Source: Terebella lapidaria
Taxonomy: Eukaryota > Annelida > Polychaeta > Terebellida > Terebellidae
Assembly (NCBI GenBank): GCA_949152475.1
Contig: OX424555.1
Location: forward strand, 9,814,868 to 9,878,867
Length of the DNA: 64,000 bases
Direction: 5' to 3'
Program-made: the position numbers and the translations under genes
Shown here: piece after piece, positions 14,891 through 61,574 of the stretch
Position numbering within the stretch: position 1 is the first letter of the stretch
Layout of the letters: each line of letters begins with the position of its first letter
The notes under the pieces: model-generated
Seen by the model: the letters and a program-made list of their open reading frames with translations, nothing else
Told to the model about the DNA's origin: nothing
Databases searched by the model: none

Positions 14891-16416
14891 TTACTCCGAG
14901 TCCGTGTCTGACTCAGAGACCAACTGTTCCGCCTCCGGAACGTTTTCCTCCTTTGACGGTTCCGTCTGCTTCCAGGAATCCGCCATTCTCCGCTTCATCC
15001 ATCTCGGATGTTTGACTCCAAGATAGGGTTTCACAAATCGAAATGAACCACGTTCTGCCGATTTTCACTCTGCAATCTCGTAGGTCACGTCAGTGAATCT
15101 GCTCAGCACCAGCTTCGGTCTGCTCCCCTTCCTTTGCAACTTGGGTGCCTTCCCTTTTTTCCGTGTTTTAACCGCCATCCACACTCGGTCTCCTGGCTGG
15201 AACTGACTGTTGACCTTCCGTCTGTCATATAGCTTCTTCTGCAGTTCCATTTCTCTGCCAGATTTCTCCCGAACCGCCTTGTAAACTGCTTCCAGTTGCT
15301 CCCGGAGCTGACTGCCATACTCTGTTACTTCTACTGTTGATTCGCCCGGCGGCCTTCCAATCAGCAATTCTACCGGAGTGTTGACTTCTCTGCTCAGCAT
15401 CAGCAAGTTGGGACTCTGCCCGGTTGTTTACTGCGGGGTACTCCGGTAAGCTGCCATTGCCAACGGAACTAGTTGGTCCCAATTGGTTTGCCGCTCACTC
15501 ACATACAGGCTCAGGATCTGCTGCAGCGTCCGGTTGAATCTTTCAATGAAGCCATCCGACTGAGGTCGGAAGGCTGTTGTCCGTGTCTTGTGAATCCCCA
15601 GGATTCTGCAAACATTCTTCAGCAAGTCGGACTCGAAATTTCTGCCTTTGTCGGTGTGGATCTCCATCGGGATGACGTACTGCGCTGCAAACTGGTTGAC
15701 GAAAATGTCCGCAACCGTAACCGCTTCCTGATTCGGCATGGGGTACGCCTCTACCCACATCGTAAAGTAATCACTGATTACCAGGATGTACCGGTTCCCT
15801 CTGGTGGATTTAGGTAACATCTCATCACGTCCATTGCCACCCGCTCCATTGGTGCTCCTACCCGGTACTTCTGCATAGGAGACCTCCGTAGGTTCTGCAT
15901 ACTTCTTGACGCACATTCGTCGCAGCTCAGCACCCGCTGCTTTATGTCCCGCATCATGGCCGGCCAGAAATATCTCCGTCGAATGCTAGCTGCCATCCTT
16001 CTGCTTCTGAGGTGTCCTCCCGTTCGGCTCTGATGGGCCAGACGGAAAATCTCCTGTCTCAGCTCCTTCGGTGTTATCAACTGCATTCGGCTAATTCCTT
16101 CTGCTGTTTTCCACTTCCGGTAGACGACTTTGTCGACTTTCAGCAAGGTCTTCCGCATTCCGTACAGCACTAACGGATAACTAATGGAAAAGCCTGCACT
16201 AACGGATATTCCGCTTCTGTCGATCAGCATTGCTACCAGTGGGTACCAAGTTTCTGCTTGCTGCATTCTCCGCAGGTCAGCCGGTTGATACTTCTGCCCC
16301 AGCATGGTTTCCTTTTCTGCATTTTCCGCCAGCCTACTCTGCTCTGCAACAGCTTTTTCCGCATCCGCTTTCTCTGCAACCGCTACCCGCCTTTCCTGGG
16401 ACAGCTTTCTCCGCAT
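14891..16416 (-). pseudogene. pol: decayed Ty3/gypsy integrase and pol C-terminus
   Basis: Three frame-shifted pieces of one integrase. 16416-15778 carries the HHCC zinc module (AHQSRTGGHL, then SCDECASR). 15916-15428 carries the catalytic core with YILVISDYFTMWVEAYP, HTDKGRNFESDLL and FRPQSDGFIERFNRTL, so the D-D-E residues are still present. 15406-15065 carries the GPD-type C-terminal module (FQPGDRVWM), followed after frame breaks by VKPYLGVKHPRWM and an acidic tail (EAEQLVSESDTDSE) ending at a TAA at 14891-14893. The frameshifts make it non-functional. It continues from the RT/RNase H piece at 16334-18190. Confidence 0.85.
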
Positions 16417-18190
16417 TCGCCTTTACCGCAACCGCCACCGCCTTGCCTTGAACAGCTTTCTCTCCATCCGCGTCTGCCGCCTCCGTTGTCTCGGCCAAGT
16501 CCGCTTTCCTAGATGACCTCTGCGACCGCCTCCGGCGTCCCCCCTTCCTTGGCTTGGGTTGTGGAGTTTCCTTGCTCCGGGTCTGCCGTATCCTTTCTCT
16601 GTAGTTCCAGGCGTCAATCTTGGCCTGTTTCCAGTCGATTTTCCCGCATTGGCTGCACGGAGTTCTTGACAGGGCATCCGCGTTATTGTGAATACGGGCA
16701 GGGCGGTGTTCTATGTCGAAGTGAAACTCGCTCAGGAGCTCGATCCACCACGCAATCTGGCCCTGTGGCTCCCTAAAATTCATCAGCCAGGTAAGACTGC
16801 CGTGATCCGTGTGGAGTAGGAAATGTCGTCCCAGCAAGTACTGTTTATTCTTCTGTATGGCATATACAACCGCCAGGAGCTCCTTCTGGGTTACGCAGTA
16901 CCGGCGTTCTTCTTTGGTCAGGCTGCGGCTCAGGTAAGTTATTACCCTTTCCTGGTTCCCCTGCTTCTGTGACAGCACTGCTCCCAGCCCGGTATCACTG
17001 GCGTTCGTGTCTAGGATGTATCTGCCCTGCTCTCTCGGATAACCGAGAATTGGTGCCGTCACTAGGCGGTTCTTCAGCTCTGCAAACGCCTGTTCTTGTT
17101 CTATCTGCCACCGGAACTGGACTCCCTTTTCCGTTAACCGGATCAGCGGGGCTGCTATTTCGGAAAATTTCGGCACAAATTTCCGATAGTAGGAACATAG
17201 ACCCAGAAAACTGCGCAGCTCCGTCAGGTTGGTGGGTGTCCGCCACTTCCACACTGCCTCCGTCTTAGCTGGGTCGGTTCGGATCCCATCTCTTCCGACT
17301 ATGTGTCCGAGGAAGGATACCTCCGGCTGGAAGAATCTGCATTTAGACGGTTTTACTTTCAGGTCTGCCTCCCTCAGCTTGTCGAAAACCTGCTGCAGAT
17401 CACGGAAGTGATCATCCAGGGTCTTGCTGTAGATGATGATGTCGTGCAAATATATGAGACAGGTCTTCCAGGAAAGTCCGCCCAACACCTTCTCCATCAA
17501 CCGCTCGAATGTACCCGGAGCATTGCACAAACCGAAGCTCATGACTTTGAACTGGTACAGGCCTCCTGGCACACAAAATACCGACTTTTTCCGTGCGTCT
17601 TCGTCCATCCCGACCTGCCAGTATCCACTGGTCAGGTCAAGAGTGGAGAACCACTTGGCGTCTGCACAGGCTGCTATGGTGTCGTCAATTCTCGGCAACG
17701 GATAAGCATCTTTTTCCGTGACCGCATTCAACCGCCGGTAGTCAACACAGAACCGGGTAGCTCCGTCCTTTTTCTTAACCAGAACAATCGGAGAAGCCCA
17801 CGGACTACTGCTATCATCAATGACATTTTTATCTTTCATCTCTTGGATCAGACTGCTCACCAGCTCCCTTTTGTCCGGCGGAATCCGTCTGGTTGGCTGC
17901 TTAATCGGCCGGTGATTACCAGTGTTGATGCTATGCTGTACCACGTTAGTCTGCCCCAGCTCTCCGGCGTCACTGCTGAAGGTCTGCTTATTCCGGAACA
18001 GGAGATCGGTTATTTTCTCTCGGTAGTATCTCGGCACTGCATCTTGGGTCTGCTCAGCTAACTGCCTCTGCTGCTCATGACCGCTCCAATTCCGCCCGGC
18101 CTCCGTTTCCAGAGAGATCTGCACCTTTCTGCTCCGCTCTGCCATTGGAACAATACTGCAACCGGCTGCTAGGGTGGTCATTGTCGCCAA
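16334..18190 (-). pseudogene. pol: decayed Ty3/gypsy reverse transcriptase-RNase H
   Basis: An open stretch of about 600 codons with RT landmarks in order: SSSPWASPIVLVKKKDG, RFCVDYRRLNAVT, FSTLDLTSGYWQV, GLYQFKVMSFGLCNAPGTFE, then the active-site box. That box reads YLHD where the family has YxDD, so a catalytic aspartate is gone. The RNase H start reads DTNAS instead of DTDAS, a second damaged catalytic position. A TAG at 18191-18193 cuts it from the protease in the same frame, and the 3' end frameshifts into an Ala/Glu/Lys-rich linker before the integrase. Confidence 0.9.
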
Positions 18191-18193
18191 CTA

Positions 18194-19190
18194 CGCTCCC
18201 TTCTTGATGATTACCGGCTCCGCTAACACGTTGATAACTCGGACAGGAACGATGCCCTGTTTTATTCGGGACAGGGTTCTCCCAATCAGCCATGGTCTTT
18301 TCTCCGACGGTTCTTGGGTCATTTCTAGAACTCTTTCAGCATCCCGGACACTGTCTGCCTGTCCTATTATCAGCTGTTCTGTTTCCGGTGGAATTTGGTA
18401 GTCTGCTACAGCGTTGATCGGAAACGGCTCTCTTGCCTGCTCGAACATGGTGAGGAACACCTCCTGACTGCCCATCTGCATGGTCATCCGGTCAAAGTTG
18501 ATTCCGGAGATCCGGGAATGGATAAAATCCATTCCTAGTATCCCCTCATCTTCACAGTCCGCTATCTCGAATGATACGTTTTCCGCTATCCCAGCGATGT
18601 TGAGAGGGAGCTCTTTCCGGCCGTACGTCCGGATGTTGCTTCAGTCCACCATGGAGAGACGAATCGGAGACCACTTCAGCTTCATTCCTGGTTTCCGGAT
18701 CCGTTCCCAGGTTTGATGGTTCAGCATGGTGACTGCACTGCCGGTGTCGATTATCAGCGTTACTGGTTCTCCGCAAATTATGCCTGTCACACACATGCCA
18801 ACCTCTCCCTAGGACCGGGTCCGTGGACCACCTGCCGGTTATGGGGGTGTCCTCTTTTACGGGTCTCGCTATTCCCCTTTTCCGAGACCCGCTCTAGTTT
18901 TCCTGCTGCTGCTGTACTTGCTGCTGTTGCTGCTGCTGCTGTGGCTGCTGCTGCTACTGTGGTTGCCACCGTTGCTGCTGCTGTCTCGGGAGTCTGCAAT
19001 CTCTGGCGAAATGCCCCTTCCGGCCGCAGTTAATGCACTCTAAATCTGCTCTGGAACCGCGCTGCTGTTGCTGCTTACTAACTGCCTCTTTAACCTGGAT
19101 CATCAGGTCCGCCAACTGCTGCTGCGTTTGATCCGCCTGCTTTTTCAGCTCTCCCATCTGCTGGCTCCACTCTGGCTGATTTAAATATCT
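18194..19190 (-). pseudogene. decayed Ty3/gypsy gag end and protease
   Basis: From high to low coordinate: the end of gag with one CCHC knuckle (CINCGRKGHFARDC) near 19010-19055, then a Gln-rich run with an in-frame TAG, then the retropepsin active site (LIIDTGSAVTML) near 18740-18770, with a premature TGA at 18641-18643, then EGILGMDF, the flap-side conserved motif. The upstream half of gag and any 5' LTR are missing. Homology stops at about 19190, next to a splice-acceptor-like tgttcctttcag on the minus strand, so the element is 5'-truncated. Confidence 0.8.
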
Positions 19191-21056
19191 GAAAGGAACA
19201 ATTCAAGTTCAATAACTGCCTGACGGCGCAAAATAAACAAAGTCCCAAACTAGAAAATCCAAGAGATCTGAAGATCCAACATTACGAAAACATTGGCAAA
19301 TCTGTAATACAAATAGAAATACAAGATTAGTACTCACTGTTTAATGTTTGTCTGGATATCCTAAGTTAAGTTAATTATTCCGTTATTGATGTTATGATGT
19401 TGACTGTTCAAAAGTTTCGGTAGATGTGTTTAAACTTTGTTGGCTGGTTGCCAAGGCAGGCGTAAACAAACGAAAATCGCGGGAATTTAGTTTTTATTTA
19501 CATGGTAGAATTTGCTATCGATAATAAACTCCGTTAGGCGGAACTGTCATAATGTAACCCTGCCACAAATTTAAAGATAAAAATGTGAACGGACGGACTG
19601 ACGACGGACGCAACGCAATAGGTTATCGGACCATAGATCTGGTAACCTAAAAACCAGCCATGAATGCAATATACTCAGAATGTGTCCTTTACATACAATA
19701 AGGATACCACAATGCTCGCTGCCATTCAAAACTTTGATGAAATGCCATATTTCAAATGTTCCTATATCCTTCTCAGAAGGAAATTGGCATTAACTTCTCA
19801 CAAGGACGGTCATTATTTTAATTGATTCAACATCAATGAACGTTGAAACTGAAGTATGTCAACCGGTTCTCAACAAACAAAATCAAGCCCACTTACTTGG
19901 TGTTCAGGCCTTTCCTCATCTTCAAAATACGGAATCCGCAGACGGAAGTGACGTCATCCACTAAGTACGCACCCTTGTCCCAGAGGTGTCAAGGAATTTA
20001 GTGGTACGTAATGTCAGTGTTATTTTGCCCAGAAATGAGTTGTGAGTTCAGTTGGTGACAAGGCTCCCCCCCCCCCCCCCCCCTCCAAATTTGCTATTTT
20101 GTCAGCACGGGATTTGCTTTTCTATCACTGCTCGCCAAAAAAAAAAGTGATTTGAACGGTAGAGGGCTCTTGTGTAACATGGAGCGAAACGTAGATTGTT
20201 GTATAATTTCAGAATCCAGTATAAACTTTGGAATGTATATTCGAAGTAGGGAAAACAAAATCATGCAATGCAGACATGTACCGTCATATGTTTGTAATAG
20301 TAATGTCTTGATCTATACGAGATTTAGTTCGATTGCAAATATACTCCGTTCGTTTAGCACGTACTGGATATAGTATGCTTTTTAAACAAAGACAACGTTA
20401 TTGGTTGCTCTATCAGCAAGAACAATTGCACTTTGCAGAAATTACTGAGTGACTTTGACAATACATGACCTAATTCGTGAGAGTCAAATAAAACTAAGGA
20501 CACATTTCAAATTTTGAATTGTATAAACATATTAGGTGAGTTGTCCATTCTGAAACAAAGCCTGTGAAATACTTGCAGGACAAGTAGATAGGCACCCGAA
20601 TTTATAATCCGAATGGATAGAAACTGCAATATAGCTGATGATGACATACGCAACTGATTTCATATAAGCCAAAATGACACCACACTGTACATCATTATAC
20701 AACGAGTCAAATGGTGTGGAAATACAGCTAGTTTATCGCAGGGCTGTGTCCTTAAACAGTATCAGCAATAGACTTGTGATGATACAATCTTTTGAAAACA
20801 TTACCGAGGGAATAAATCGAAGACTTGCATGTCGTGTAAAACGGGAATGTGCTACATGCCAATATCAATTTAATCCCATTTGTTTTTTAATCAATTGTGA
20901 ATAATTTTGAAATGTCATACTCATCGAACATTGAAAATCAATATCAAGCGCCCAACATCCATCTATAAATCTAATGTTCAACGAATAGATTGTATCAGTA
21001 TTTCAAACGCATTATAATATCGTGTATCCATAGAAAGCTCAGAGTCACTAACAATC
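19191..21056. other. intergenic; MITE end and poly-C tract
   Basis: No gene seen. The 19545-19648 block is the right end of the AGGTTACCG-type MITE family (ends ggtaacct at 19641-19648, preceded by gacggactgacgacggacgc-like sequence as at 61200-61240). A C-run lies at 20066-20083. ORFs here are short and featureless. The DNA directly upstream of the fucosyltransferase gene shows no clear TATA box. Confidence 0.5.
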
Positions 21057-44500: not shown

Positions 44501-46084
44501 GGCCGAAGCCATCATCAGATGTTTGTAAGCAACCATGGTTGTAATCAATGCTTAGTAAACAATGGACATGTGGGATGATTTTATTTGTATAAAGGGGTCA
44601 TTTGGCATAATCCATTTGCACAATGACTGATGAAATACTATTTAACTATGTATATGTTCAGTGTATGGAAGAACAAATACTTGGTAAATGTCCTCAATTT
44701 TTAATTCCACCACTACATATACAGCATGAATTTATTTGAGCACGTTGACTAAAGTCGGCAGTTATATCACAGCCTAGTTGATATGCCTTGGCGACGCTGA
44801 ACCTACGATCGAAAGGTCTCCAGCCTGAATGGTACTATGACACAGTGCTAGAGGGTTACCGGGGTATGGGATTCACATCCCTTTCACCAGATGTTCAGTG
44901 TGTTATCACAGCCTTTCACCCTCCCGGCTCAAACACACATCATCACAAGCTGGCTACTAATAACCGTTTACCAACCGCGTTTGGTCCATTGTCTACAGGT
45001 ACCAACGGCTCAATGCAAAGTACAATACTCAGAACATTGAAGGATTTAACTGGCCATTGCACAATATGTGCAATCTTTCAGACGAATCAATTGCTCACTA
45101 ACTTAATAATACGTTCATTTGCCTTATATATCTGAATTTATACCCACTCAATAGTAATGGTGTTAGTAGTATTCCACCATTAATTTTCATTCATGTAAAT
45201 GATTACCACAATGTATATGTTGAAAAATTAACCACTAAAAGTTTTTTCCTCTTTGTTGCGTATAAGTGTTCCATAATTTGCCACTAAAAGGTGATATGAA
45301 GAGCAAAATAGGCACTAACGTAGACTTGATGCTTGGAGTTTAGCACAGCGCCATCTGGTGAATAAGGCATCATTTATTGAATATGAATTGCAACTTGAAT
45401 AACGGCGCCATCTAGTGAATACAAATGGCAAAATGTATTACATGAAAGGAATGTGTATGCCATTTTATAAACATATTCCACAATAAACATATTGAAACGA
45501 ATTTTCTACATATACCATATTCAAATGACTCAAGTTGACATCATAGAACAGTCTGACAAGGTCTGTTGCCTCTATATGGCACCATTACAATGGGTGGTAT
45601 TCAGGAACGCTATGACTGTGTATAACACTCTTATTATGCAGTTCTTTGCAGTTTTTGCATTGCCTGATGGGTAAATTTTATCATTTTAAAATTGTTTATT
45701 CACGCATCATGGATGTATGTAATATATAGCTCATTCAGATGCATTCTGAACGTACGAGACAAGGCGCCACACTAGCAATAATGGGTGCCACATTAGTAAC
45801 ACCAAAATTATTGAGTGAGTTCAAGGGTATGTGCTAAAATAGTTGGAAGTGATGTCCGTACAAATCATTTTCATTTCTTATGAAATTTCTAGCATTTTAG
45901 GGACTGAAAGGGCGAAATGTGCTTTCCAATTTTTAAAAAAATATTACACGACTGAGGATGGGCAGACAGGCGGAATCCTATATTTTTGTTTTAGTGCTTA
46001 TTATTTTGGACCGTCATTAGATCTAAAATGCATTTTTGATCATGGAAATACACAATCTAGTAGTATTTTTATCACTGCAAAAGG

Positions 46085-47232
46085 CGGCGCCAGGCTTGGC
46101 AGCCTCAGCCACAGGCTCAGCCTCAGCCACAGACTCAGCCTCAGGCTTGCCAGCCTCAGCCACAGGCTCAGCCTCAGGCTTGCCAGCCTCAGCCACAGGC
46201 TCAGCCTCAGGCTTGCCAGCCTCAGCCACAGGCTCTGCCTCAGGCTTGCCAGCCACAGCCCCAGCCACAGGCTCAGCCTCAGCCACAGGCTCAGCCTCAG
46301 CCTCAGGCTTGCCAGCCTCAGACACAGGCTCAGCCACAGCCTCAGCCACAGGCTCAGCCTCAGCCACAGGCTCAGCCACAGCCCCAGCCACAGGCTCAGC
46401 CTCAGCCACAGGCTCAGCCTCAGCCTCAGGCTTGCCAGCCTCAGACACAGGCTCAGCCTCAGGCTTGCCAGCCTCAGCCTTAGGCTCAGCCTCAGACACA
46501 GGCTCAGCCTCAGCCTTAGGCTCAGCCTCAGCCACAGGCTCAGCCTCAGCCACAGGCTCAGCCTCAGCCACAGGCTCAGCCTCAGGCTTGCCAGCCTCAG
46601 GCTCAGCCTCAGGCTTGCCAGCCTCAGCCTTAGGCTCAGCCACAGGCTCAGCCTCAGCCACAGGCTCAGCCTCAGCCACAGGCTTGCCAGCCTCAGCCAC
46701 AGGCTCAGCCTCAGGCTTGCCAGCCTCAGCCACAGGCCTGAGGCTGAGCCTGTGTCTGAGGCTGGCAAGCCTGAGGCTAAGGCTGAGCCTGTGGCTGAGG
46801 CTGAGCCTGTGGCTGAGCCTGTGGCTGAGGCTGAGCCTGTGGCTGAGGCTGAGCCTAAGGCTGAGGCTGGCAAGCCTGAGGCTGAGCCTGTGTCTGAGGC
46901 TGGCAAGCCTGAGGCTGAGGCTGAGCCTGTGGCTGAGGCTGAGCCTGTGGCTGCGGCTGTGGCTGAGCCTGTGGCTGAGGCTGAGCCTGTGGCTGAGGCT
47001 GAGCCTAAGGCTGAGGCTGAGCCTGTGTCTGAGGCTGGCAAGCCTGAGGCTGAGGCTGAGCCTGTGGCTGAGGCTGAGCCTGTGGCTGGGGCTGTGGCTG
47101 GCAAGCCTGAGGCAGAGCCTGTGGCTGAGGCTGGCAAGCCTGAGGCTGAGCCTGTGGCTGAGGCTGGCAAGCCTGAGGCTGAGTCTGTGGCTGAGGCTGA
47201 GCCTGTGGCTGAGGCTGCCAAGCCTGGCGCCG
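46085..47232. repeat. inverted tandem array at the centre of the foldback element
   Basis: Words of cagcctcagccacaggct and caggcttgccagcctcagc up to a caggcctg switch point at 46734-46741, then the complementary words. The left array is about 650 bp and the right about 495 bp, so the switch lies about 78 bp off the symmetry centre. Arms of the array have expanded or contracted independently. Confidence 0.85.
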
Positions 47233-49110
47233 CCTTTTGCAGTGATAAAAATACTACTAGATTGTGTATTTCCATGATCAAAAATGCATTTTAGATCTAA
47301 TGACGGTCCAAAATAATAAGCACTAAAACAAAAATATAGGATTCCGCCTGTCTGCCCATCCTCAGTCGTGTAATATTTTTTTAAAAATTGGAAAGCACAT
47401 TTCGCCCTTTCAGTCCCTAAAATGCTAGAAATTTCATAAGAAATGAAAATGATTTGTACGGACATCACTTCCAACTATTTTAGCACATACCCTTGAACTC
47501 ACTCAATAATTTTGGTGTTACTAATGTGGCACCCATTATTGCTAGTGTGGCGCCTTGTCTCGTACGTTCAGAATGCATCTGAATGAGCTATATATTACAT
47601 ACATCCATGATGCGTGAATAAACAATTTTAAAATGATAAAATTTACCCATCAGGCAATGCAAAAACTGCAAAGAACTGCATAATAAGAGTGTTATACACA
47701 GTCATAGCGTTCCTGAATACCACCCATTGTAATGGTGCCATATAGAGGCAACAGACCTTGTCAGACTGTTCTATGATGTCAACTTGAGTCATTTGAATAT
47801 GGTATATGTAGAAAATTCGTTTCAATATGTTTATTGTGGAATATGTTTATAAAATGGCATACACATTCCTTTCATGTAATACATTTTGCCATTTGTATTC
47901 ACTAGATGGCGCCGTTATTCAAGTTGCAATTCATATTCAATAAATGATGCCTTATTCACCAGATGGCGCTGTGCTAAACTCCAAGCATCAAGTCTACGTT
48001 AGTGCCTATTTTGCTCTTCATATCACCTTTTAGTGGCAAATTATGGAACACTTATACGCAACAAAGAGGAAAAAACTTTTAGTGGTTAATTTTTCAACAT
48101 ATACATTGTGGTAATCATTTACATGAATGAAAATTAATGGTGGAATACTACTAACACCATTACTATTGAGTGGGTATAAATTCAGATATATAAGGCAAAT
48201 GAACGTATTATTAAGTTAGTGAGCAATTGATTCGTCTGAAAGATTGCACATATTGTGCAATGGCCAGTTAAATCCTTCAATGTTCTGAGTATTGTACTTT
48301 GCATTGAGCCGTTGGTACCTGTAGACAATGGACCAAACGCGGTTGGTAAACGGTTATTAGTAGCCAGCTTGTGATGATGTGTGTTTGAGCCGGGAGGGTG
48401 AAAGGCTGTGATAACACACTGAACATCTGGTGAAAGGGATGTGAATCCCATACCCCGGTAACCCTCTAGCACTGTGTCATAGTACCATTCAGGCTGGAGA
48501 CCTTTCGATCGTAGGTTCAGCGTCGCCAAGGCATATCAACTAGGCTGTGATATAACTGCCGACTTTAGTCAACGTGCTCAAATAAATTCATGCTGTATAT
48601 GTAGTGGTGGAATTAAAAATTGAGGACATTTACCAAGTATTTGTTCTTCCATACACTGAACATATACATAGTTAAATAGTATTTCATCAGTCATTGTGCA
48701 AATGGATTATGCCAAATGACCCCTTTATACAAATAAAATCATCCCACATGTCCATTGTTTACTAAGCATTGATTACAACCATGGTTGCTTACAAACATCT
48801 GATGATGGCTTCGGCCATGCATGGACCTCATACATGGCGACCCAGTTATAGGAAAAAGGACAAAAAGTGGACCTCATACATGGTGACCCTGCTCTGAGGA
48901 AAAAGGACAAAAAGTGTACCTCATACATGGTGGCCCTGTTCTAGGGAGGACAAAAAGTGGACCTCATACATGGTGACCCTGTTCTAGGAAAAACAATAAA
49001 AAGTGGGTAGTATACTACTTGCAGTTTTATTCATTTCTCTCGAATAGTTCATCCACAATCCCAGTCAAACTCTCAAACGATACTGGATTGCCGGCGTTTG
49101 TTTACATGTA

Positions 49111-53331: not shown

Positions 53332-53583
53332 TTAGTCCCACGTTGTCACTACGGGTGAAGGGAGGGGACCCTCCGCACAGTACCCGTCTTTCTCGCTGGA
53401 CTTTTTTTTTTCCTTTCGAGTTCGGGTTTTCCTCAAGGACCTATACTTGAGTCTGTTGACCAAAGACGTACTGAAGAAGACTGTCATATCCATGCCGAAC
53501 TCCAGCACCTCGGCGACTGTACAAACGGACCAGCCAATACATAAACCAAGCATACCGCCAAGGTCTGATAGGTAACTCCCGAT
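53332..53583 (-). CDS. exon 13: TM2, selectivity filter, C-terminal tail
   Basis: Encodes GSYLSDLGGMLGLCIGWSVCT, matching the pre-TM2/TM2 region of DEG/ENaC channels. The filter triplet reads GWS where most family members have GAS or GSS. The tail is strongly basic (RKTRTRKEKKK). TAA at 53332-53334. Confidence 0.9.
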   Translation of the reverse strand: MGSYLSDLGGMLGLCIGWSVCTVAEVLEFGMDMTVFFSTSLVNRLKYRSLRKTRTRKEKKKSSEKDGYCAEGPLPSPVVTTWD

Positions 53584-56500
53584 CTGTAGATAATATAACG
53601 GCATACAGGTAAGAAGTATTCCAGCCTAAATGACTCAGATTTGAAGAGTGTTGTGTATGGAAGCCTACCGTATATCCGATCGTTTCTTCAACAGTTTCGT
53701 AATTGAATTCTTCATAGTAAATTTCCAGCTTTACAAGATTTCTCCTGAATTGCTTTGGGTCGTTTATGTCGAAACTATCTTCAACCAGTGCGGATAACTT
53801 GGATATCAGTGATTCCTGGCAAACGTGGGAGAACACATAAACATGTTGCGGTAGCAATGATAATCGGTGTCAGGTGACGAAATCTGGTACTCACCCGCTG
53901 TACTTGGGAGGGCCATTGACCCAGCGAAACCTCGGCAGAGTAGGCAACCGCTCTGAAGAAAACGTTATGGTTCCATACATTGTTCAATGTGTAACCAAAG
54001 GTGTGACTAATCGGCCGTGAACCGCCGTATTTCATAACTAGAATACTCAAATAGAATAACCACCGAAAACGAAATCTAATAAAACCAACATCTATACGTG
54101 AATGTACATGTATGACTGTATAACCTGCAAATTTCTGGACAGTCACAAAGCAACGAGTTGTTGTTGAAACTGCTCTGTACTTCTTCGAGACAAGTAGCTG
54201 AAATGTAACATATTACAGAGACAAGAACAGCCCCTGGCCAGGCCGCCTCAATAATTTCCACGAACACATCCTTGAGTGTTGTCCAATGATCAAATCGTTC
54301 AATGAAATGTGTCATATCGCGAATTCAACACTGTACTGTATTACCTTCTGCATCGTCGGAAGAATTGCACACAGAGACCGGTGTCTCCGGGTCGATAGTA
54401 CTGCGCAATGGGTAGTGGGCGTCACCACAGCCACACGTGCTAATCACGTGTTCCTGATAGCAGGTCTTCTGGCAACTCTGGCGAAAAATATATAAAACGC
54501 GGAGATGTGGTTATTTGCGTCCGACCGACTATTGATACCATATCAATAGCCTGACGTTCAGCGAAAGTACAAATCCACCGATTTTGAATGCATTGATCAC
54601 CTACTTTTGGGGAATACTCTACAGGGTAGAGGAAGGAGTATATATCACGTTCAGTTTGTTGAGTCGATGAATTGATGCACTTTCCTTTCGGTGGCGACAA
54701 ACGGGTAACCACAACCTTTGTATGGAAGTACAGATAGCAAAAATATCAGCTGCCTATAATCTACGATTTTTAATCTCGAATACATATAGTGGTATGTGAC
54801 ATTGAAGCACAGTTGTGGATAGGTGTGCATACCTGTCTGATCCCTATCGATGTTGTGAAGCCTGGTGCGACTGTCAGACCTTCGTCCTCTGGGAACGGGA
54901 ACCTGTGCTGAGGATGAACTACCACGCGTATCCCAGCAACGTCGTTCCCAATGTCGATGTATTCATTTTGAGCGATGTTTAAAATCAAGTGTAGGCCTGG
55001 AATACGTACACGTACATACAAGTAGCGCACCTTACTCTGTTAATACTACTCACCCACTGAATGTATACCATATTTTATCCGTCGGGCACATTTTTAAGGA
55101 CGAATTGCACGTAAAATCCCGAATCTGGAACTCGCCAGTTCTCCATTCACTTATAATGTAAATAAAAAGGTAACAAAATCATGAACTTGCAAACATCCAT
55201 TTGGCACCAGAATTTACTGTGGCGACCTATAGCCATCAATGATCACCAACCAAGACTTGGTTCTTGACTGAATATGATTAATTGTCTGATAATTGTCATT
55301 TTCAAATGGCATTTTGTGACTTATTTCTCAAAAGCCTACACTCAAAACATGCCAAACAGCAGGATTATTTTTTAAAGACATATAGCATGCCGATGAAAGT
55401 GCTTTTCATTTAGTCTATTATGATTAGTTCGAACTATTATGATTAATTTTACAAATACAATCAATGTGTTTCGAGATATCGAACCAAATAGGCACTCCTT
55501 CCGTAAATTGCCGAAGAGTTTGATCCTGATTTTAGTGTGGGTCACGTGGTTGGTGACGTCAGTTGAGGCAGACCTGAAAGTACATGTAGCCAGCAAGGTA
55601 AAACTGCATGTCGCATATCCATTCCCCTGATGTATGTTTGACAATTCAAGTGAAGGGGTGACATGGCAGAAATGCGGCATTTCTTGTCTTGATATTTAGG
55701 ATCAGTACTATTTATTCACCCAGAACGGAGGTTTGTTGAACTGCAAGATGTCCAGTATTTGCTGGTTTTTGCGTGTTTTCTGTTGAATCGCATGCATTTT
55801 GAAGTGATTTTCTGTCTTTGAGCTGGCCACCAAATTACGTATTTTACGTTTTCGGCGAGCCATCGAAGCACATTCTGCCTCAACTGACGTCACGATTACG
55901 GAAATTGCCGAAGCTATTTCTTCCATCGGCTGGAGAAGGCGATTGTAATACTGGCTCAATATACTCCATTATATATCGGTGTTAATAGTTACCAATTAAC
56001 GCGAACACCTTTTTTTATCACCAAATGTCCACAATGCCTTTATGTGAACAGGAATAAAACCATATAATGGTACCTTGCTACTATGACTTTAATGCGGACA
56101 ACTAGTAATGCTAGTAAAGCTCACTGGTGAGTTGCGCTCGGGTGCACCAAATCCGCCTATTGTATTCCTCTCGCAGAAATTCAAGTCGTATATGCATCTA
56201 TTATTGGATGGTCACACAACAAAGCGTACATACCAACAACAGCTTGTTTGTAACGCTGAAGATACTACGTGTTGTTTGCTGGCGCGTGTAAAAGTGATAT
56301 CTATAATCATCAATTTGTACAATCACTGTGATACTTTTTATAGAACCATGTCTCGGTTCATCATCCATGGCTATACATACCTCTGTTAATGAAGTTTCAA
56401 GAAGAACGGTTGGGTTGTCTTGCTGATTTTGTTACCTTTATGTTTACATTACAAATGAATGGGAGAGCGGCTCACCACAGTGTTTGGTCTGTTACCCGCA

Positions 56501-59500
56501 GTCAATCCTTAATCTTCATTGAATTTAGAAGAAATAGTAAGCTGCGCTACATGGGCCCACTTTTTTTAGCTAGAGCGATCATCTGAGTCCAGTAGGCCGT
56601 TAATAAATACAGAAAACGATCTAACCATGGCGTCTTCCCGTCTTCGAAGACAGCCTAGGACCAGTGGCGCTAGAATTCCACCCCGAATTGAATGTGTAAC
56701 AATTCCCATGAGTCGGATTGTAGAAAGTGGAAAATTCTCTGAAACAGAGATAAAACGTATGACGTGATTTATGTGTAAGTTAAATGTGTATGTTAATACA
56801 TTCAAGTCATTTAATATATATATCAATGTGCGTTATTGTATTGCAGTTGGTGATTGGGCTAATATGCACCAGCGGAATAGCAGATTGCAGGTACAACGTA
56901 CCTCGCTAGACATGTGTAGCCGGCGTACTGACAGTCGAGGATGAGTTGATTGACCGAGTACCCCAACTGAGATTTCTCTGTCTCGTCCATGACTGCAATT
57001 TTCTCGGTCAGTCTGTCTTCACTCTGAAACTCTTCTAGCGTACGGGTGTTTAGGCTGGACTCGGACGTGTTCAGTATCTCGGACTCCGTCGATGTCTGTC
57101 CCGTTGTTTTTGTGGTGTCGGTCTCGGCTGTCTCGGCAGTCGTGGCGTCATCGTCAGTGGGTCTGTCTGTCGCAGTGAACAGGTCATGCGGTACGGTTGG
57201 ATCATGTGGTGATGTCACTGTCGGAATACTTGAAGCACACTGAATTGCCTCGGATACTGCTGGAGAATTGCAAGTATTGCAAGTTGTAGTGATGTATAGT
57301 CCCGTATAAACATTGTGACGGCAACACGTGCAACAGCATTGGTTATGAAGGAAGGCCGGGGATGTTAATGATGCAGTAACTGTTGTTGTTGGTAATGCAG
57401 TTGTTGTTGCCAGTGATGCAGTTGTCATTGTTGTTGCTGTCGTTGGTGCTGATGTAGCAGGTGTCGTTGGTGATGCAGACGTTGTCATCTGTGATGCAGT
57501 TGTTGTTGTTGTCGTCATCTGTGATGCAATTACTGTTGTTGGTGACACAGTTGTTGTCGTTAGTGACGCAGTTGTTGTCGTCGGTGATGCAGCTGTTGTC
57601 ATTGGTGATGCAGTTGTTGTCGTTGGTGACGCAGTTGTTGTCGTTAGTGACGCAGTTGTTGTTGGTGACGCAGTTGTTGTCGTTGATGACGCAGATGTTG
57701 TCGTTGGTGATGCAATTGTTGTCATTGGTGATGCAGTTGTTGTTGTTGTTGGTAATGCAGTTGTTGTCGTTGGTGGTTCAGTTGTAGTCGTCACTGACGC
57801 AGTTGTTGTCGTCGGTGACACAGTTGTAGTCGCCGGTGACGCAGTTGTTGTTGTTGGTGATGCAGTTGTTGTCGTTGGTGACGCAGTTGTAGTCGTGAGT
57901 GACGCAGTTGTTGTCGTTGGTGACGCAGCTGTTGTCGTCGGTGACGCAGTTGTTGTCGTTGGTGATGCAGTTGTTGTAGTCGGTGACGCAGTTGTTGTAG
58001 TTGGTGATGCAGTTGTTGTCGTTGGTGACGCAGTTGTTGTCGTTGGTGATGCAGTTGTAGTCGGTGACGCAGTTGTTGTAGTTGGTGATGCAGTTGTTGT
58101 CGTCGGTGACGCAGTTGTTGTAGTTGGTGATGCAGTTGTTGTCGTTGGTGACGCAGTTGTTGTAGTTGGTGATACAGTTGTTGTCGTCGGTGACGCAGTT
58201 GTTGTCGTTGGTGATGCAGTTGTTGTCGTCGGTGACGCAGTTGTTGTCGTTGGTGATGCAGTTGTTGTCGTCGGTAACGCAGTTGTTGTCGTCGGTGACG
58301 CAGTTGTTGTCGTTGGTGATGCAGTTGTTGTCGTCGGTGACGCAGTTGTTGTCGTTGGTGATGCAGTTGTTGTCGTCGGTGACGCAGTTGTTGTAGTTGG
58401 TGATGCAGTTGTTGTTGAAATAGCCGCAAGTTTGCAGACATAGTATTTTGAAGCACTACATGCCGCAGACTCCCAGTAACCCTGTGGATGACTTATGCAT
58501 CCGCAAGTATCACTACCGATACTGTTTCGCCAGTTCTCAAACACAAAAGCTGAACCATCCAACCACTGCCAGGTACCGCTAACCTTTTCCAGACCAATCC
58601 AATACTCAGTGTGAGAATTTGTGGGACTGAATGAATGAAGAAATAAATCACAGTATAAAATAACAATCAAAAGCTGAACACGAACATCTATAAAACTGGC
58701 ATATATATGCAATATATAACAAAGTTGTTGTTGCTCTAGTTTTATTCCGATTGCACGATAATCGGTTTGTCAAGGCTATAGATACACAAGGCCACAAAAC
58801 AGTTCTCCGACAAGACATTCTGGAAAATTTTATGTCGAATACGACTTGATAATGAAACTGATAAACAATCTCTATATGACCAATGAAATTTGGATGTTAT
58901 GCAGTGTTTTGCAGTGAGCATTTACAGAACATGTATGATTATCGGTGTGACAGAAGTGTGTGTACAATGTTTACAGTTTCCATTTTGAGTGACACAAGTA
59001 AACATCAGGGATCCAGAGTAACAAAAGTGGCCAAAATTCTTGTTGTGAGATCGTCAGTCAAATAAACTAATAAAATTGGATGATGTGTGTGCTAGAATAT
59101 CAGTTCGTGAGCTGAGCAGCTTGTGAAAAAAGGTGCACTGTGCTAAGCGGCACCGGAAGTTAAAGTAACTTTGTATTTGAAATCGGCCGCCGCTGATGCG
59201 GCGACCAATAACCTCGAGTTTAGACACTCGGGATCCTCGGATCCTCGGTCAAGTGCGGTCTTGTCACGGATACAGCACACACGACCAAACTCTCTGATAT
59301 ACGACTTCATATGCTCATGATACAAACCTCGACATTGCACTTTCTTCAGACTAAACATATGCACACTATGATTTGCTTCCTATTTTCTGAACACTATAGC
59401 CCGTCATATTTGTTCATTTACAGTGACATTTGATGGTTATGAATAATGCCCGTACGTGATGCCGTCGACGTATGTCCATTCTGCTGCGTCTTGTACACTG

Positions 59501-61574
59501 GTGAGGTGTGCGCCACTCGCCTGACAGGCACTCTGTGCTCCGGAGAAGTCTGTCTTGCTTCCTGACACAAAGTAGCAGGCCCCGTTGTATTCCGTCCATC
59601 CGGCATCACACGTTGCTGCTAGGATACAACATCAGACATTAGAGAAATGATACACTTTCTAGTATATGGCAATAATGAAAGTCTGGTTGTCTCCTTGTAA
59701 CACGGTGTCATCTGAATGTATCAATGAAAGACATATTTGATACGATCATACAACTAACGCTGGAATCCAGCCATCCAGGTGGTTATTGAAGAATCGTTGG
59801 AAAAATTTTCTTTGATATCCCGGAATTGGTATGCACGAGTTCATGCGAGACTCACCCCGCTTGCGGCGCCGTTTGGGCAAAGATGACACCCGACCGCTGG
59901 TGTACTGTGCCAAAGCGGAGGCTCGCACCCTGTTCATGTTACATAACGTGATGGCTGGGAACTTGAGCTCATGTTGGTGCTGGAAGGTCACGGCCACAGA
60001 AGTTTCATCCGAAGTGAATGTTTGGGATATGTTGATAAGGTAGTAGAACAGTAGAACCAATGTAGCGAGCCAAGTTACTATCCAGAACGTCTTTTTCACC
60101 AAACCTATTAGAGGGGATGGGGGTATGTTTCAACATTTCCATACACGACGTGGTATCAAGCGTTTCAGTGGCGAACTGTTGTGTTGTAAGATCCAGTCAT
60201 CTAATGTATGAAATTCAAATACGCCGAGAAGAAATAGAGAAGTTAAGAACCATACCTTTGGATGCGTCCGTTCTCCGGATGCCATGTGAGGTGGTGAGGT
60301 CTCGGAATCCGTCCCACAGGATGGCTGGATTTACGCGGGGAAGGTAGGCGGCCTCAGGACTAACCTGAGTACTTAGTATCGCCTTGAGACTCATCAGATC
60401 CCAGTAGGACGGAGTCAGATAGCAGTACCATGACCTCCCGGATAGGTGTTTCGGTATCTCGGGATGCACTGGACCTGTACATAGGGAATAGTTTAGTCTG
60501 AATGTATTAATACATAATGTAAACACAATGCATGCACAGACTTCTCTATCACAATACGGTAACTATACACTACATGTTATGCGGATTTAACTATATCGTC
60601 CCACCAGGCATATTCAGTAACATAAGAATATGGCCATCAAAGTCCTGAACAAATTTTGGTGAAAAGAAAACGGAGCTCGACCAAACATTTCATAAACAAA
60701 TAATCCAGGCATATAAGAAAATTAGCCCATGGCTAAGATAGGTTACCGGACAATTTTGGCTTGGATAATGGCAGGTAATAGATCTTGAGATACACCAATC
60801 AAGGTTATCCATGTGAACTTCAATGTCACCATTACATGTACGTGTGCGGCATTTGATTTTCCATATGTTCATAATACAAAGATATATCTGGGTGCAAGTG
60901 TTCAGGCCACTCAGGCCAATTTACACATTCCGAGTTAGACATTTGGCACTCAATGTCATCTTTGGTTAAGTCCAAGGTCATCATTAGTTTTGCCATAAAT
61001 GTATTCCTATATGTCCATAATGCAAACATAAGTGTTATCTGCAAGCATTTCATCTATAGGGGCAAATCTGGGATTTTTTAAAAACCCAAAAATGGCTGTT
61101 AGACCTTTCAAGGTCATCGAAGGTCAAATTCAAGGTCACCACACAAGTCGCAATATATGACGTCCCATTCAAAGAGTGACCGTAAACTTTAAAGATAAAA
61201 ATGTGGACGGACTGACGACGGACGACGGACGCAACGCCATGCCAATAGGTTTTCTGACCAAAACAACGGTAACCTAAAAACACACCACAATTTTCTGGCG
61301 ATAATATGATATCGTGTACCTTTTGATTTCTTTACCAGAGAAGCGTCTTTCTCGAGGATGTCCTGTCTGTAGTCTGGATCGTGCATTCTGCCGGGTAACA
61401 CGAGGTTGTTAATCCCCTCCTTCCGCTCGAGGTCCCTTTTATAGTCGGGATCATTCCGTAACTGCGCAGGGTACGCACAATCAATGGCGGTGTTCTTGTC
61501 CTTCATTTTCTTCCTCATGTCGCTCTTTTCATTTTGTTTTGCGCCTTTCTCCAAATCGAGTAACCTCCAGACTA
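53332..61574 (-). CDS. DEG/ENaC-type channel with inserted C-type lectin and mucin-like region (multi-exon)
   Basis: Exons 5'->3': 61574-61320 (may extend or begin at ATG 61518), 60474-60256, 60104-59856, 59618-59456, 58626-56902, 55149-55058, 54996-54833, 54715-54605, 54477-54345, 54197-54125, 53952-53895, 53815-53669, 53583-53332. All junctions are GT-AG and phases fit throughout (1,1,1,2,2,1,0,0,1,2,0,0). That gives about 1194 aa from Met 61518. Order: cytosolic N-terminus with the HG motif (LTTSHGIRR), TM1, FPAITLCNMNR, C-type lectin domain, Thr-rich tract of about 350 residues, small Cys cluster, then the remaining ENaC ectodomain, TM2 and a basic tail. Predicted trimeric sodium channel in the plasma membrane with the lectin and stalk outside. 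The weakest junction is exon 6 donor (TTCA|GTGGGT). The 5' end is not established. Confidence 0.82.
53669..55149 (-). CDS. exons 6-12: DEG/ENaC ectodomain (palm, knuckle, thumb)
   Basis: Seven exons. 55149-55058 gives the WYTF turn. 54996-54833 gives GLHLILNIAQNEY, GIRVVVHPQHRFPFP and VAPGFTTSIGIR. 54715-54605 gives TRLSPPKGKC and IYSFLYPVEYSPK. 54477-54345 gives SCQKTCYQEHVISTCGCGD. 54197-54125 gives SLLCDCPEIC. 53952-53895 gives AYSAEVSLGQWPSQVQ. 53815-53669 gives FRRNLVKLEIYYEEFNYET. Each is the expected family block in the expected order, with the thumb cysteines present. The exon 8 donor (AAA|GTAGGT) was chosen because it restores the YS..Y...C..C spacing. Confidence 0.85.
55553..55893. 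repeat. 20-bp inverted repeat in intron 5
   Basis: gtgacgtcagttgaggcaga at 55553-55572 and its exact complement at 55874-55893, about 300 bp apart. Both contain a TGACGTCA CRE-like site. It could be the ends of an old small element. Confidence 0.6.
56627..56767 (+). CDS. short plus-strand ORF inside intron 5, uncertain
   Basis: 46 codons starting in a good Kozak context (accATGg): MASSRLRRQPRTSGARIPPR at the N-terminus, ending EIKRMT. It lies antisense within intron 5 of the channel gene. No family recognised and no neighbours; likely chance, recorded because of its start context. Confidence 0.15.
   Translation: MASSRLRRQPRTSGARIPPRIECVTIPMSRIVESGKFSETEIKRMT
56902..58626 (-). CDS. exon 5: lectin second half, mucin-like tract, ENaC cysteine segment
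   Basis: A single 1725-bp open exon. It starts with HTEYWIGLEKVSGTWQWLDG and ends the lectin fold with YWESAACSASKYYVCK. It continues with about 50 heptads of TTTTASP type, then a cysteine cluster (NQCCCTCCRHNVYTG), an acidic Thr/Ser stretch, and finally LGYSVNQLILDCQYAGYTC. The last is the channel family block GHxxxDxLLxCxxxGxxC. The lectin lacks the EPN or QPD sugar-binding triplets and has WES in place of WND, so classical calcium-dependent sugar binding is not predicted. The mucin tract should be heavily O-glycosylated. Confidence 0.9.
57361..58420. repeat. 21-bp coding minisatellite (Thr-rich heptads)
   Basis: About 50 copies of gttgttgtcgttggtgatgca (21 bp, written on plus), with occasional 3-bp losses or gains that keep the frame. 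Antisense frames give the VVVGDAV and QLRHRRQQ shadow ORFs. Copy number is likely polymorphic. Confidence 0.95.
58627..59455. other. intron 4 of the lectin/ENaC gene
   Basis: 829 bp splitting the lectin domain. It ends in the acceptor ttcattcattcag and begins GTACGG. Nothing else recognised. Confidence 0.6.
59456..59618 (-). CDS. exon 4: first half of the C-type lectin domain
   Basis: Encodes CDAGWTEYNGACYFVSGSK and then AQSACQASGAHLTSVQDAAE, the long-form lectin start with the extra N-terminal disulfide. It joins exon 3 in phase 1 (CGG G|CA) and exon 5 in phase 2 (AC|T). The first available AG (cctag) at 59619-59620 is used; a second AG three bases on keeps the frame. Confidence 0.85.
59856..60104 (-). 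CDS. exon 3: TM1 and post-TM1 palm strand of the ENaC channel
   Basis: Encodes VKKTFWIVTWLATLVLLFYY (TM1), then HELKFPAITLCNMNRVRAS, the family motif after TM1, and ends at a furin-like basic run (PKRRRKR). The donor is a consensus G|GTGAGT. The frame stays open 97 bp past the donor to another possible donor (GC|GTTAGT at 59759), but that junction would run into a stop in exon 4. Confidence 0.85.
60256..60474 (-). CDS. exon 2: cytosolic N-terminus of the ENaC channel
   Basis: Begins VHPEIPKHLSGRSWYCYLTP and ends GFRDLTTSHGIRRTDASK, which contains the conserved His-Gly gating motif that precedes TM1 in DEG/ENaC channels. Bounded by phase-1 introns with acceptor ctatgtacag and donor AAAG|GTATGG. 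Confidence 0.8.
60740..61275. mobile_element. MITE with AGGTTACCG ends in intron 1
   Basis: Left end aggttaccg(gaca)attttgg at 60740, right end ccaaaacaacggtaacct at 61258-61275: short imperfect TIRs. The interior holds several tcaaggtca words and the gacggactgacgacggacg stretch. Truncated relatives lie at 690, 19545, 23293, 50150 and 51720. Confidence 0.7.
61320..61574 (-). CDS. exon 1 (or internal 5' exon) of the lectin/ENaC gene
   Basis: Open reading with a possible acceptor (attcgcag) at 61575 and donor AAAAG|GTACAC after 61320 in phase 1. The peptide holds two related segments, RNDPDYKRDLERKEG and MHDPDYRQDILEKDA, giving a charged, soluble N-terminus. If translation starts here, the ATG is at 61518 (MRKKMKDKNTA). 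Otherwise a further exon upstream is needed, which I could not identify. Confidence 0.6.

Follow-up and report, generated by a model that had tools for sequence, protein, structure and literature searches.

Can a recognition domain be carried inside the ectodomain of a sodium channel, and could it act on the pore from there? This question is raised by a gene located in a 64,000-nucleotide stretch of the genome of the annelid Terebella lapidaria (contig OX424555.1, positions 9,814,868 to 9,878,867; the whole of this stretch is referred to here as the window), for which a sequence-only reading had proposed a DEG/ENaC channel with a C-type lectin domain and a mucin stalk in its ectodomain. The gene lies on the minus strand (61574–53332), and both of the ends proposed for it proved exact, 53332 being the stop and 61574 the border of the first exon. 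The 13 exons counted in that reading have GT–AG borders throughout and consistent splice phases, and they yield a protein of 1201 amino acids that begins at Met 61518. The Pfam domains ASC and Lectin_C are both found in this one protein, and the claimed fusion of lectin, mucin, and channel is present in the single frame of exon 5. Judged from the genomic sequence, it appears nearly certain that the gene encodes a DEG/ENaC subunit with a lectin domain and a mucin-like stalk placed inside the insert of the ectodomain finger, a place where a recognition domain is not expected.

Two relatives of the gene enter the description of its parts. A tandem paralog, located about 20 kb from the window gene (C1:9901757–9896522, where the prefix C denotes a contig), encodes 948 amino acids with the same thirteen-exon architecture, and P0001 is a predicted protein of 681 amino acids from the annelid Paralvinella palmiformis. 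The features of the window gene are as follows, with the source of each assignment in brackets.

61320..61574, minus strand: exon 1, first in-frame Met at 61518 (N-terminus similar to that of the tandem paralog)
60256..60474, minus strand: exon 2, N-terminal cytosolic part, including the His-Gly motif TTSHGI (conserved between this gene, P0001, and the tandem paralog)
59856..60104, minus strand: exon 3, first transmembrane segment (TM1), first strand FPAITLCNMN, and finger helix 1 (ASC match C1:9874724-9874966, Pfam)
59857..59871, minus strand: polybasic furin-like motif RRRKR at the end of exon 3, directly before the lectin (sequence)
59456..59618, minus strand: exon 4, first half of the C-type lectin-like domain (gene model, genome search with the lectin half, Pfam)
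56902..58626, minus strand: exon 5, second half of the lectin to finger helix 2 and the first channel cysteines, in one open frame (gene model, Pfam)
58431..58626, minus strand: second half of the C-type lectin-like domain (8.4e-12 for Pfam Lectin_C when exon 5 is scanned by itself)
57342..58421, minus strand: mucin-like Thr/Ser/Pro tract of about 360 residues (composition and repeat analysis)
57237..57341, minus strand: cysteine element CCCTCC…CNTC…C, conserved in lectin-less relatives (alignment)
56967..57236, minus strand: second Thr-rich linker and EEFQSEDRLTEK segment, leading into the channel (alignment)
56626..56738, minus strand: exon 6, REFSTFYNPTHGNCYTFNSGW…SKTGRRHG (list of open reading frames; conserved in P0001)
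54833..54996, minus strand: exon 7, channel ectodomain (gene model)
54605..54715, minus strand: exon 8, channel ectodomain (gene model)
54345..54477, minus strand: exon 9, ectodomain cysteines, SCQKTCYQEHVISTCGCGDAHYPL (gene model)
54125..54197, minus strand: exon 10, ectodomain cysteines, CDCPEIC (gene model)
53895..53952, minus strand: exon 11, YSAEVSLGQWPSQ (gene model)
53669..53815, minus strand: exon 12, final portion of the ectodomain ahead of TM2 (gene model)
53332..53583, minus strand: exon 13, second transmembrane segment (TM2), cytosolic tail, and stop codon (gene model, Pfam)
53527..53535, minus strand: GWS, with a bulky middle residue, at what we take to be the GxS selectivity-filter position (same GWS in the tandem paralog)

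The RRRKR motif, the CCCxCC element, the tandem copy, and the gene family described below go beyond the sequence-only reading. The border at 61574 is acceptor-like, and an extra 5' exon, either non-coding or coding, may precede exon 1. A different candidate for exon 6 (55149–55058) was rejected, since its better donor broke the frame and the match to P0001 pointed to 56738–56626. With the latter segment as exon 6, Pfam ASC scored 295 bits instead of 249, and the frame-breaking better donor, which had occurred at one junction only, was gone. A scan of the window found no Rfam family at the gathering score and no tRNA.

The channel part is recognized by Pfam ASC in two stretches of the 1201-residue protein (E 1.3e-87, 295 bits), the best of which covers positions 98-455 of the profile. 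TM1 and TM2, assigned by homology and by hydrophobicity judged by eye, flank a cysteine-rich ectodomain, the cysteines of which align with those of ASIC and of relatives. A His-Gly motif before TM1 and GxS in TM2 are the defining features of DEG/ENaC channels, and both signatures are found here, as TTSHGI and GLCIGWS, respectively. In a sequence search of the PDB with the channel core, the beta, alpha, gamma, and delta subunits of ENaC scored 188, 168, 164, and 153 bits, with ASIC1 (146 bits) and FaNaC1 (101 bits) below all of them; on the basis of these sequence scores rather than of a tree, the core is nearest to ENaC among the channels of known structure. The ENaC subunits (SCNN1A/B/G) share with the window protein the ASC domain and, probably, an insert between finger helices 1 and 2, in addition to giving the best scores; to our knowledge, ENaC has neither the lectin nor the long mucin-like tract nor the CCCxCC element. 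The GxS of ENaC usually has a small middle residue, whereas the window protein has GWS. ASIC1 and ASIC2 have the same fold and are the next best by sequence and the best by fold, but their finger is short, and the aligned P0006 is without the RRKR, CCC, and Thr-rich parts. FaNaC, an invertebrate DEG/ENaC channel, also gives a fold match, although its sequence score is weaker, and we know of no lectin domain in it.

The site of the insert can be followed in P0001 and in P0002, a protein of 751 amino acids on a contig of 2930 bases. Both have RRKR, CCCxCC, a Thr-rich tract, the LGY segment, and the channel core in the same order as the window protein, but neither has a Pfam match to Lectin_C. 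On the simplest reading of these sequences, the finger insert is older, and the lectin and the long stalk were added to it between RRKR and CCCxCC; the possible alternative history is a loss of the lectin in P0001 and P0002. The placement of the insertion in the finger, proposed earlier, agrees with the alignment and with an AlphaFold2 model of P0002 (mean predicted local distance difference test score, pLDDT, 60.6; 17-row alignment), where a disordered insert (residues 143–322) lies between helices 132–143 and 323–342, assigned here as finger helices 1 and 2. The protease-gated GRIP domain of human ENaC sits between helices alpha1 and alpha2 (Noreng 2018, PMC6197857). According to that paper, ENaC has a furin site N-terminal to the P1 strand and inhibitory peptides that pack on helix alpha2, and the alpha and gamma subunits have furin sites in the finger insert, for which the RRKR-type motif of the window protein is a putative counterpart. 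By analogy, the position of the insert would equal that of the GRIP domain.

Exon 5, with 1725 bases and 574 open codons, is the uninterrupted frame of lectin, mucin, and channel that had been described earlier. It runs from the second half of the lectin through a Thr-rich tract of about 360 residues (previously put at about 350), the CCCTCC…CNTC element, and the second Thr-rich linker to the channel segment LGYSVNQLILDCQYAGYTC. When Pfam is applied to exon 5 alone, only the lectin half matches, the channel part being of insufficient length for ASC to match; this part is recognized by alignment to P0001. The tract contains 186 Thr, 50 Ser, and 43 Pro in 362 residues, and most of it is a tandem array with a 21-bp period (57534-58415, 42 copies). 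The window protein thus has the long Ser/Thr/Pro tandem repeat by which mucin-type stalks are defined, and its stalk appears mucin-like, with O-glycosylation predicted only. A long array of 42 repeats in an assembly of 438 contigs might suggest an assembly artefact or a pseudogene, as might the GC donors present in three introns of the tandem copy. This explanation has a negligible probability, since the frame is fully open with intact splice borders across 13 exons, and further loci on C1, C7, C9, and C15 carry differing mucin repeats.

Comparison of the window gene with the tandem copy shows that both the lectin and the channel are under purifying selection in this pair. For the lectin, the non-synonymous (dN) and synonymous (dS) divergences are 0.197 and 0.678, with a ratio of the corresponding proportions (pN/pS) of 0.39 (bootstrap 0.26–0.60), and for the channel part dN is 0.192, dS 1.93, and pN/pS 0.245 (bootstrap 0.20–0.30). 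The Thr-rich tract has 360 residues in the window gene and 183 in the tandem copy. As a separate observation, dS in the lectin (0.68) is far below that in the channel (1.93), for which gene conversion or constraint would be possible explanations. A tblastn search of 20 stretches (200 kb) flanking the window and the tandem copy, with the window as a positive control, revealed no further member of the family.

Further members were found when the T. lapidaria genome (761.6 Mb, 438 contigs) was searched as a whole. With the CCC–LGY segment as the query, 20 matches were obtained at E values of up to 10, and stretches around 11 further loci (L033–L043) were read over short regions; the six weaker matches, on C8, C13, C3, C1 (73.7 Mb), C7 (10.3 Mb), and C2, were left unread. 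A frame of the exon 5 type, in which a Thr-rich tract joins the second lectin half to an LGY-type segment, is present in L033, L034, L035, L038, L039, and L040. The lectin half is apparently in an exon of its own in L036 and L042, it is degenerate in L041, and no whole lectin half lies within the short stretch read in L037 and L043. Pfam places Lectin_C above the cut-off in eight of ten proteins (open reading frames of nine loci and the tandem protein); L041 reaches 17 bits, under the cut-off, and L040 has no Pfam match, although its lectin halves match the window lectin in the genome searches with both halves.

In these searches (E <= 0.01 for the first half), 11 of the 33 matches to the first lectin half and 11 of the 18 matches to the second one fall in ASC loci, including the best eight and the best five, respectively; these counts take in the window gene, whose close copies should in any case rank near the top. 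By random placement, about 0.03 and 0.02 matches, respectively, would lie on the same strand and less than 10 kb from 99 ASC matches and 17 of the 20 CCC–LGY matches (the three weakest being dropped). Both halves are found on the strand of the channel exons at 11 loci: C1:9.87 (window), C1:9.90, C9:28.61, C7:36.60, C7:8.47, C7:38.26, C7:9.84, C15:26.08, C7:7.72, C7:4.59, and C7:8.45 Mb. At C7:4.59 (L042) the second half was read directly, and for C7:9.84 the evidence for both halves comes solely from the searches. The TM1 exon is seen at nine of the 11 loci, the exceptions being C7:8.47 and C15:26.08. At C8:17.95 a second lectin half only is flanked by a TM1 match and an LGY match, which makes it a probable twelfth locus as judged from these matches; C1:21.43 has a degenerate lectin and C1:21.46 shows none. 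All these locus counts are lower bounds, as only the best candidates were scored.

An RRKR-type motif, read by eye, ends the TM1 exon in all ten loci where this end was read (window, tandem copy, L033, L034, L042, and L044–L048, with RRQKR in L045). Eight of these ends belong to the 11 lectin loci and the other two to C1:21.43 and C1:21.46; the ends at C7:8.47, C7:38.26, C15:26.08, and C8:17.95 are outside this count. The sequence of the mucin repeat varies by locus, while the repeat is Thr/Ser/Pro-rich in the frame that joins the channel, and the stalk ranges from little at L042 to the longest in the 1015-residue open reading frame of L039. Taken together, these sequences make it highly probable that a multigene family under selection, with at least 11 loci of this build, exists in one genome.

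The shared frame also bears on the explanation by two overlapping genes or alternative transcripts, according to which the lectin–mucin exons would be used elsewhere and skipped in the channel. P0001 and P0002 are lectin-less, and a cryptic acceptor could in principle enter exon 5. Nevertheless, the lectin half, the Thr-rich tract, and the channel share a frame not only in the window gene and the tandem copy but also in the six loci listed above, the splice phases of the window gene are consistent throughout, and there is no stop codon after the mucin tract; with the lectin and the channel each under purifying selection in the tandem pair, this explanation is very improbable.

Several other observations were made on these loci. 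In the frames read, the conserved cysteine pair of the DCQYxGxxC segment has apparently been lost, wholly in L036 and partly in L037, which unseen splice borders could also explain. Pairs of family loci on opposite strands are located about 30 to 36 kb apart at C7:8.446/8.474 Mb and C1:21.43/21.46 Mb. Ten similar first lectin halves are clustered at C1:83.98-84.12 Mb with no ASC match listed nearby, possibly a separate array of lectin genes. The genome also contains at least 12 ASC frames of nearly full length in which neither a stop nor an intron occurs, apparently intronless DEG/ENaC genes, several of them clustered (for example, at C14:125653, C2:42.70 Mb, and C9:2.05 Mb).

What the lectin might bind can be approached through its sequence. 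Pfam Lectin_C matches residues 245–342 of the whole protein with E 3.6e-20, and the WIGL motif and the cysteine framework are present in the alignment of the family lectins. The best sequence matches in the PDB are the yolk sac IgY receptor, LY75, PLA2R, and mannose receptors, with CD69 as the best single-domain entry. The lectin-like domains of LY75, PLA2R, and CD69 belong to the same fold family and score highly with the window lectin; these receptors have one membrane segment, whereas the window lectin lies inside a channel ectodomain. The canonical Ca2+/sugar-site motifs of C-type lectins are EPN or QPD together with WND-type residues. The window lectin reads RNSIGSDTCGC…YWES and lacks both, so that neither Ca2+-dependent sugar binding nor the glycan sensing suggested earlier is supported for this copy, and a protein or non-canonical ligand is more likely. 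Among the 11 family lectins read, one has EPN (L033, with WKD), three have EPD (L035, L036, and L040, with W-x-D), one has EPS (L042), and six have none: the window copy, the tandem copy, and L034, where the canonical EPN/QPD and WND are missing, as well as L038, L039, and L041, where EPN, EPD, and EPS are all absent. The family lectins may thus span canonical sugar ligands and protein or non-canonical ones.

The best explanation of the whole, which we consider probable, is that the window gene encodes one DEG/ENaC subunit of a family with at least 11 loci, the gating of which would be tuned through a tethered lectin–mucin arm. A proprotein convertase would cut at RRKR, after which the lectin would sit close to the free tip of a mucin leash; the leash itself continues directly into finger helix 2, the element where the ENaC inhibitory peptides pack. 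Capture of a ligand, tension, or further proteolysis of the arm would then shift helix 2 and change the open probability of the sodium channel. With different lectins and stalk lengths in individual genes, different ligands would be read into one output. Gating by a ligand or by force, and roles in chemosensing, immunity, or fertilisation, as suggested earlier, would be candidate functions. The arm is proposed to act on helix 2 because of the position of the insert and its parallel with the ENaC GRIP domain, and control of gating by the arm has a chance close to even, though slightly short of it.

Several points weigh against this explanation. The architecture is predicted from genomic sequence, and furin cleavage from its motif. 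P0001 and P0002 hold the RRKR and CCC elements without a lectin, which is therefore dispensable for such channels, and the model of P0002, a protein other than that of the window gene, with its mean pLDDT of 60.6, disordered insert, and no lectin, gives no contact between an arm and the gate. The canonical sugar-site residues are missing from the window lectin. Channel exons past LGY are seen at only six of the 11 loci (window, tandem copy, C9:28.61, C7:36.60, C7:9.84, and C7:8.45), the remaining loci having been read no further. Finally, Foldseek against the PDB puts ASIC1 and FaNaC above ENaC by E-value.

The existence of lectin-less relatives would also suit an arm that serves as an anchor or a coat, holding the channel to mucus, cuticle, matrix, or adjacent cells or protecting it from proteases, while the pore would open by other means, for instance through a peptide, protons, or a constitutive leak. 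The wide spread of stalk lengths among the paralogs (about 360 and 183 residues, little at L042, and the longest in L039) points in the same direction, since it makes a tightly tuned mechanical part less likely. However, the attachment point of the arm corresponds to the place of proteolysis sensing in ENaC, and every one of the exon ends read retains an RRKR-type motif, so that a mere anchor or coat is somewhat unlikely.

The position of this motif, immediately N-terminal to the lectin, leads to yet another possibility, namely that RRKR and a second cut free a soluble lectin–mucin, with the channel being either mainly its precursor or activated by loss of the arm, as ENaC is by loss of its inhibitory peptide. 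In ENaC, two protease sites flank the inhibitory tract (PMC6197857). Residues 346-830 of the window protein, from the lectin to the LGY segment, contain no RxxR or dibasic site, and the lack of a second basic site lowers shedding to a rather remote prospect, although other proteases could still make such a cut.

Returning to control of gating by a tethered arm, we can speculate, as an unlikely but attractive extension, that the family represents lineage-specific ionotropic lectin receptors, in which at least 11 furin-primed channels, every one with a lectin of its own on a mucin leash anchored to the gating helix of the finger, would convert the binding of different microbial, mucus, gamete, or self ligands directly into a sodium current. 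If the tethered arm does control gating, extracellular recognition would be coupled to sodium entry within a single polypeptide, and the family would offer a natural experiment on the control of the gate by the finger and GRIP region, since its paralogs have a conserved channel core but differ in the length of the stalk and the type of lectin.

DEG/ENaC channels are described as similar in structure, each with a pair of membrane segments and a large ectodomain (PMC9822975). Neither that paper nor PMC10507113 uses the word "lectin" in its main text, and among the papers listed by a literature search, with most subscription journals and all preprints outside its reach, none was found to report a C-type lectin domain in a DEG/ENaC channel. 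A protein-database search made with the rejected exon 6 (55149–55058) in the query matched only P0001, which does not combine PF00858 with PF00059, and a second one showed no protein with both among at least 80 matches listed. Another search, aimed at lectin-bearing channels elsewhere, returned five lectin-domain proteins, four of them of the proteoglycan type as judged by name or domains, but missed P0001 and is therefore uninformative on other species; the Thr-rich words probably swamped the query.

Outside the gene, the window contains, at 15068-19202 on the minus strand, retroelement-like open reading frames with reverse-transcriptase-like, integrase-like, and zinc-knuckle segments recognized by eye. 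A large palindrome extends over 44782-48535, with identical 117-residue open reading frames at 44782-45132 (plus strand) and 48185-48535 (minus strand), and the frames at 45843-47291 (plus strand) and 46026-47474 (minus strand) within it share the same start sequence.

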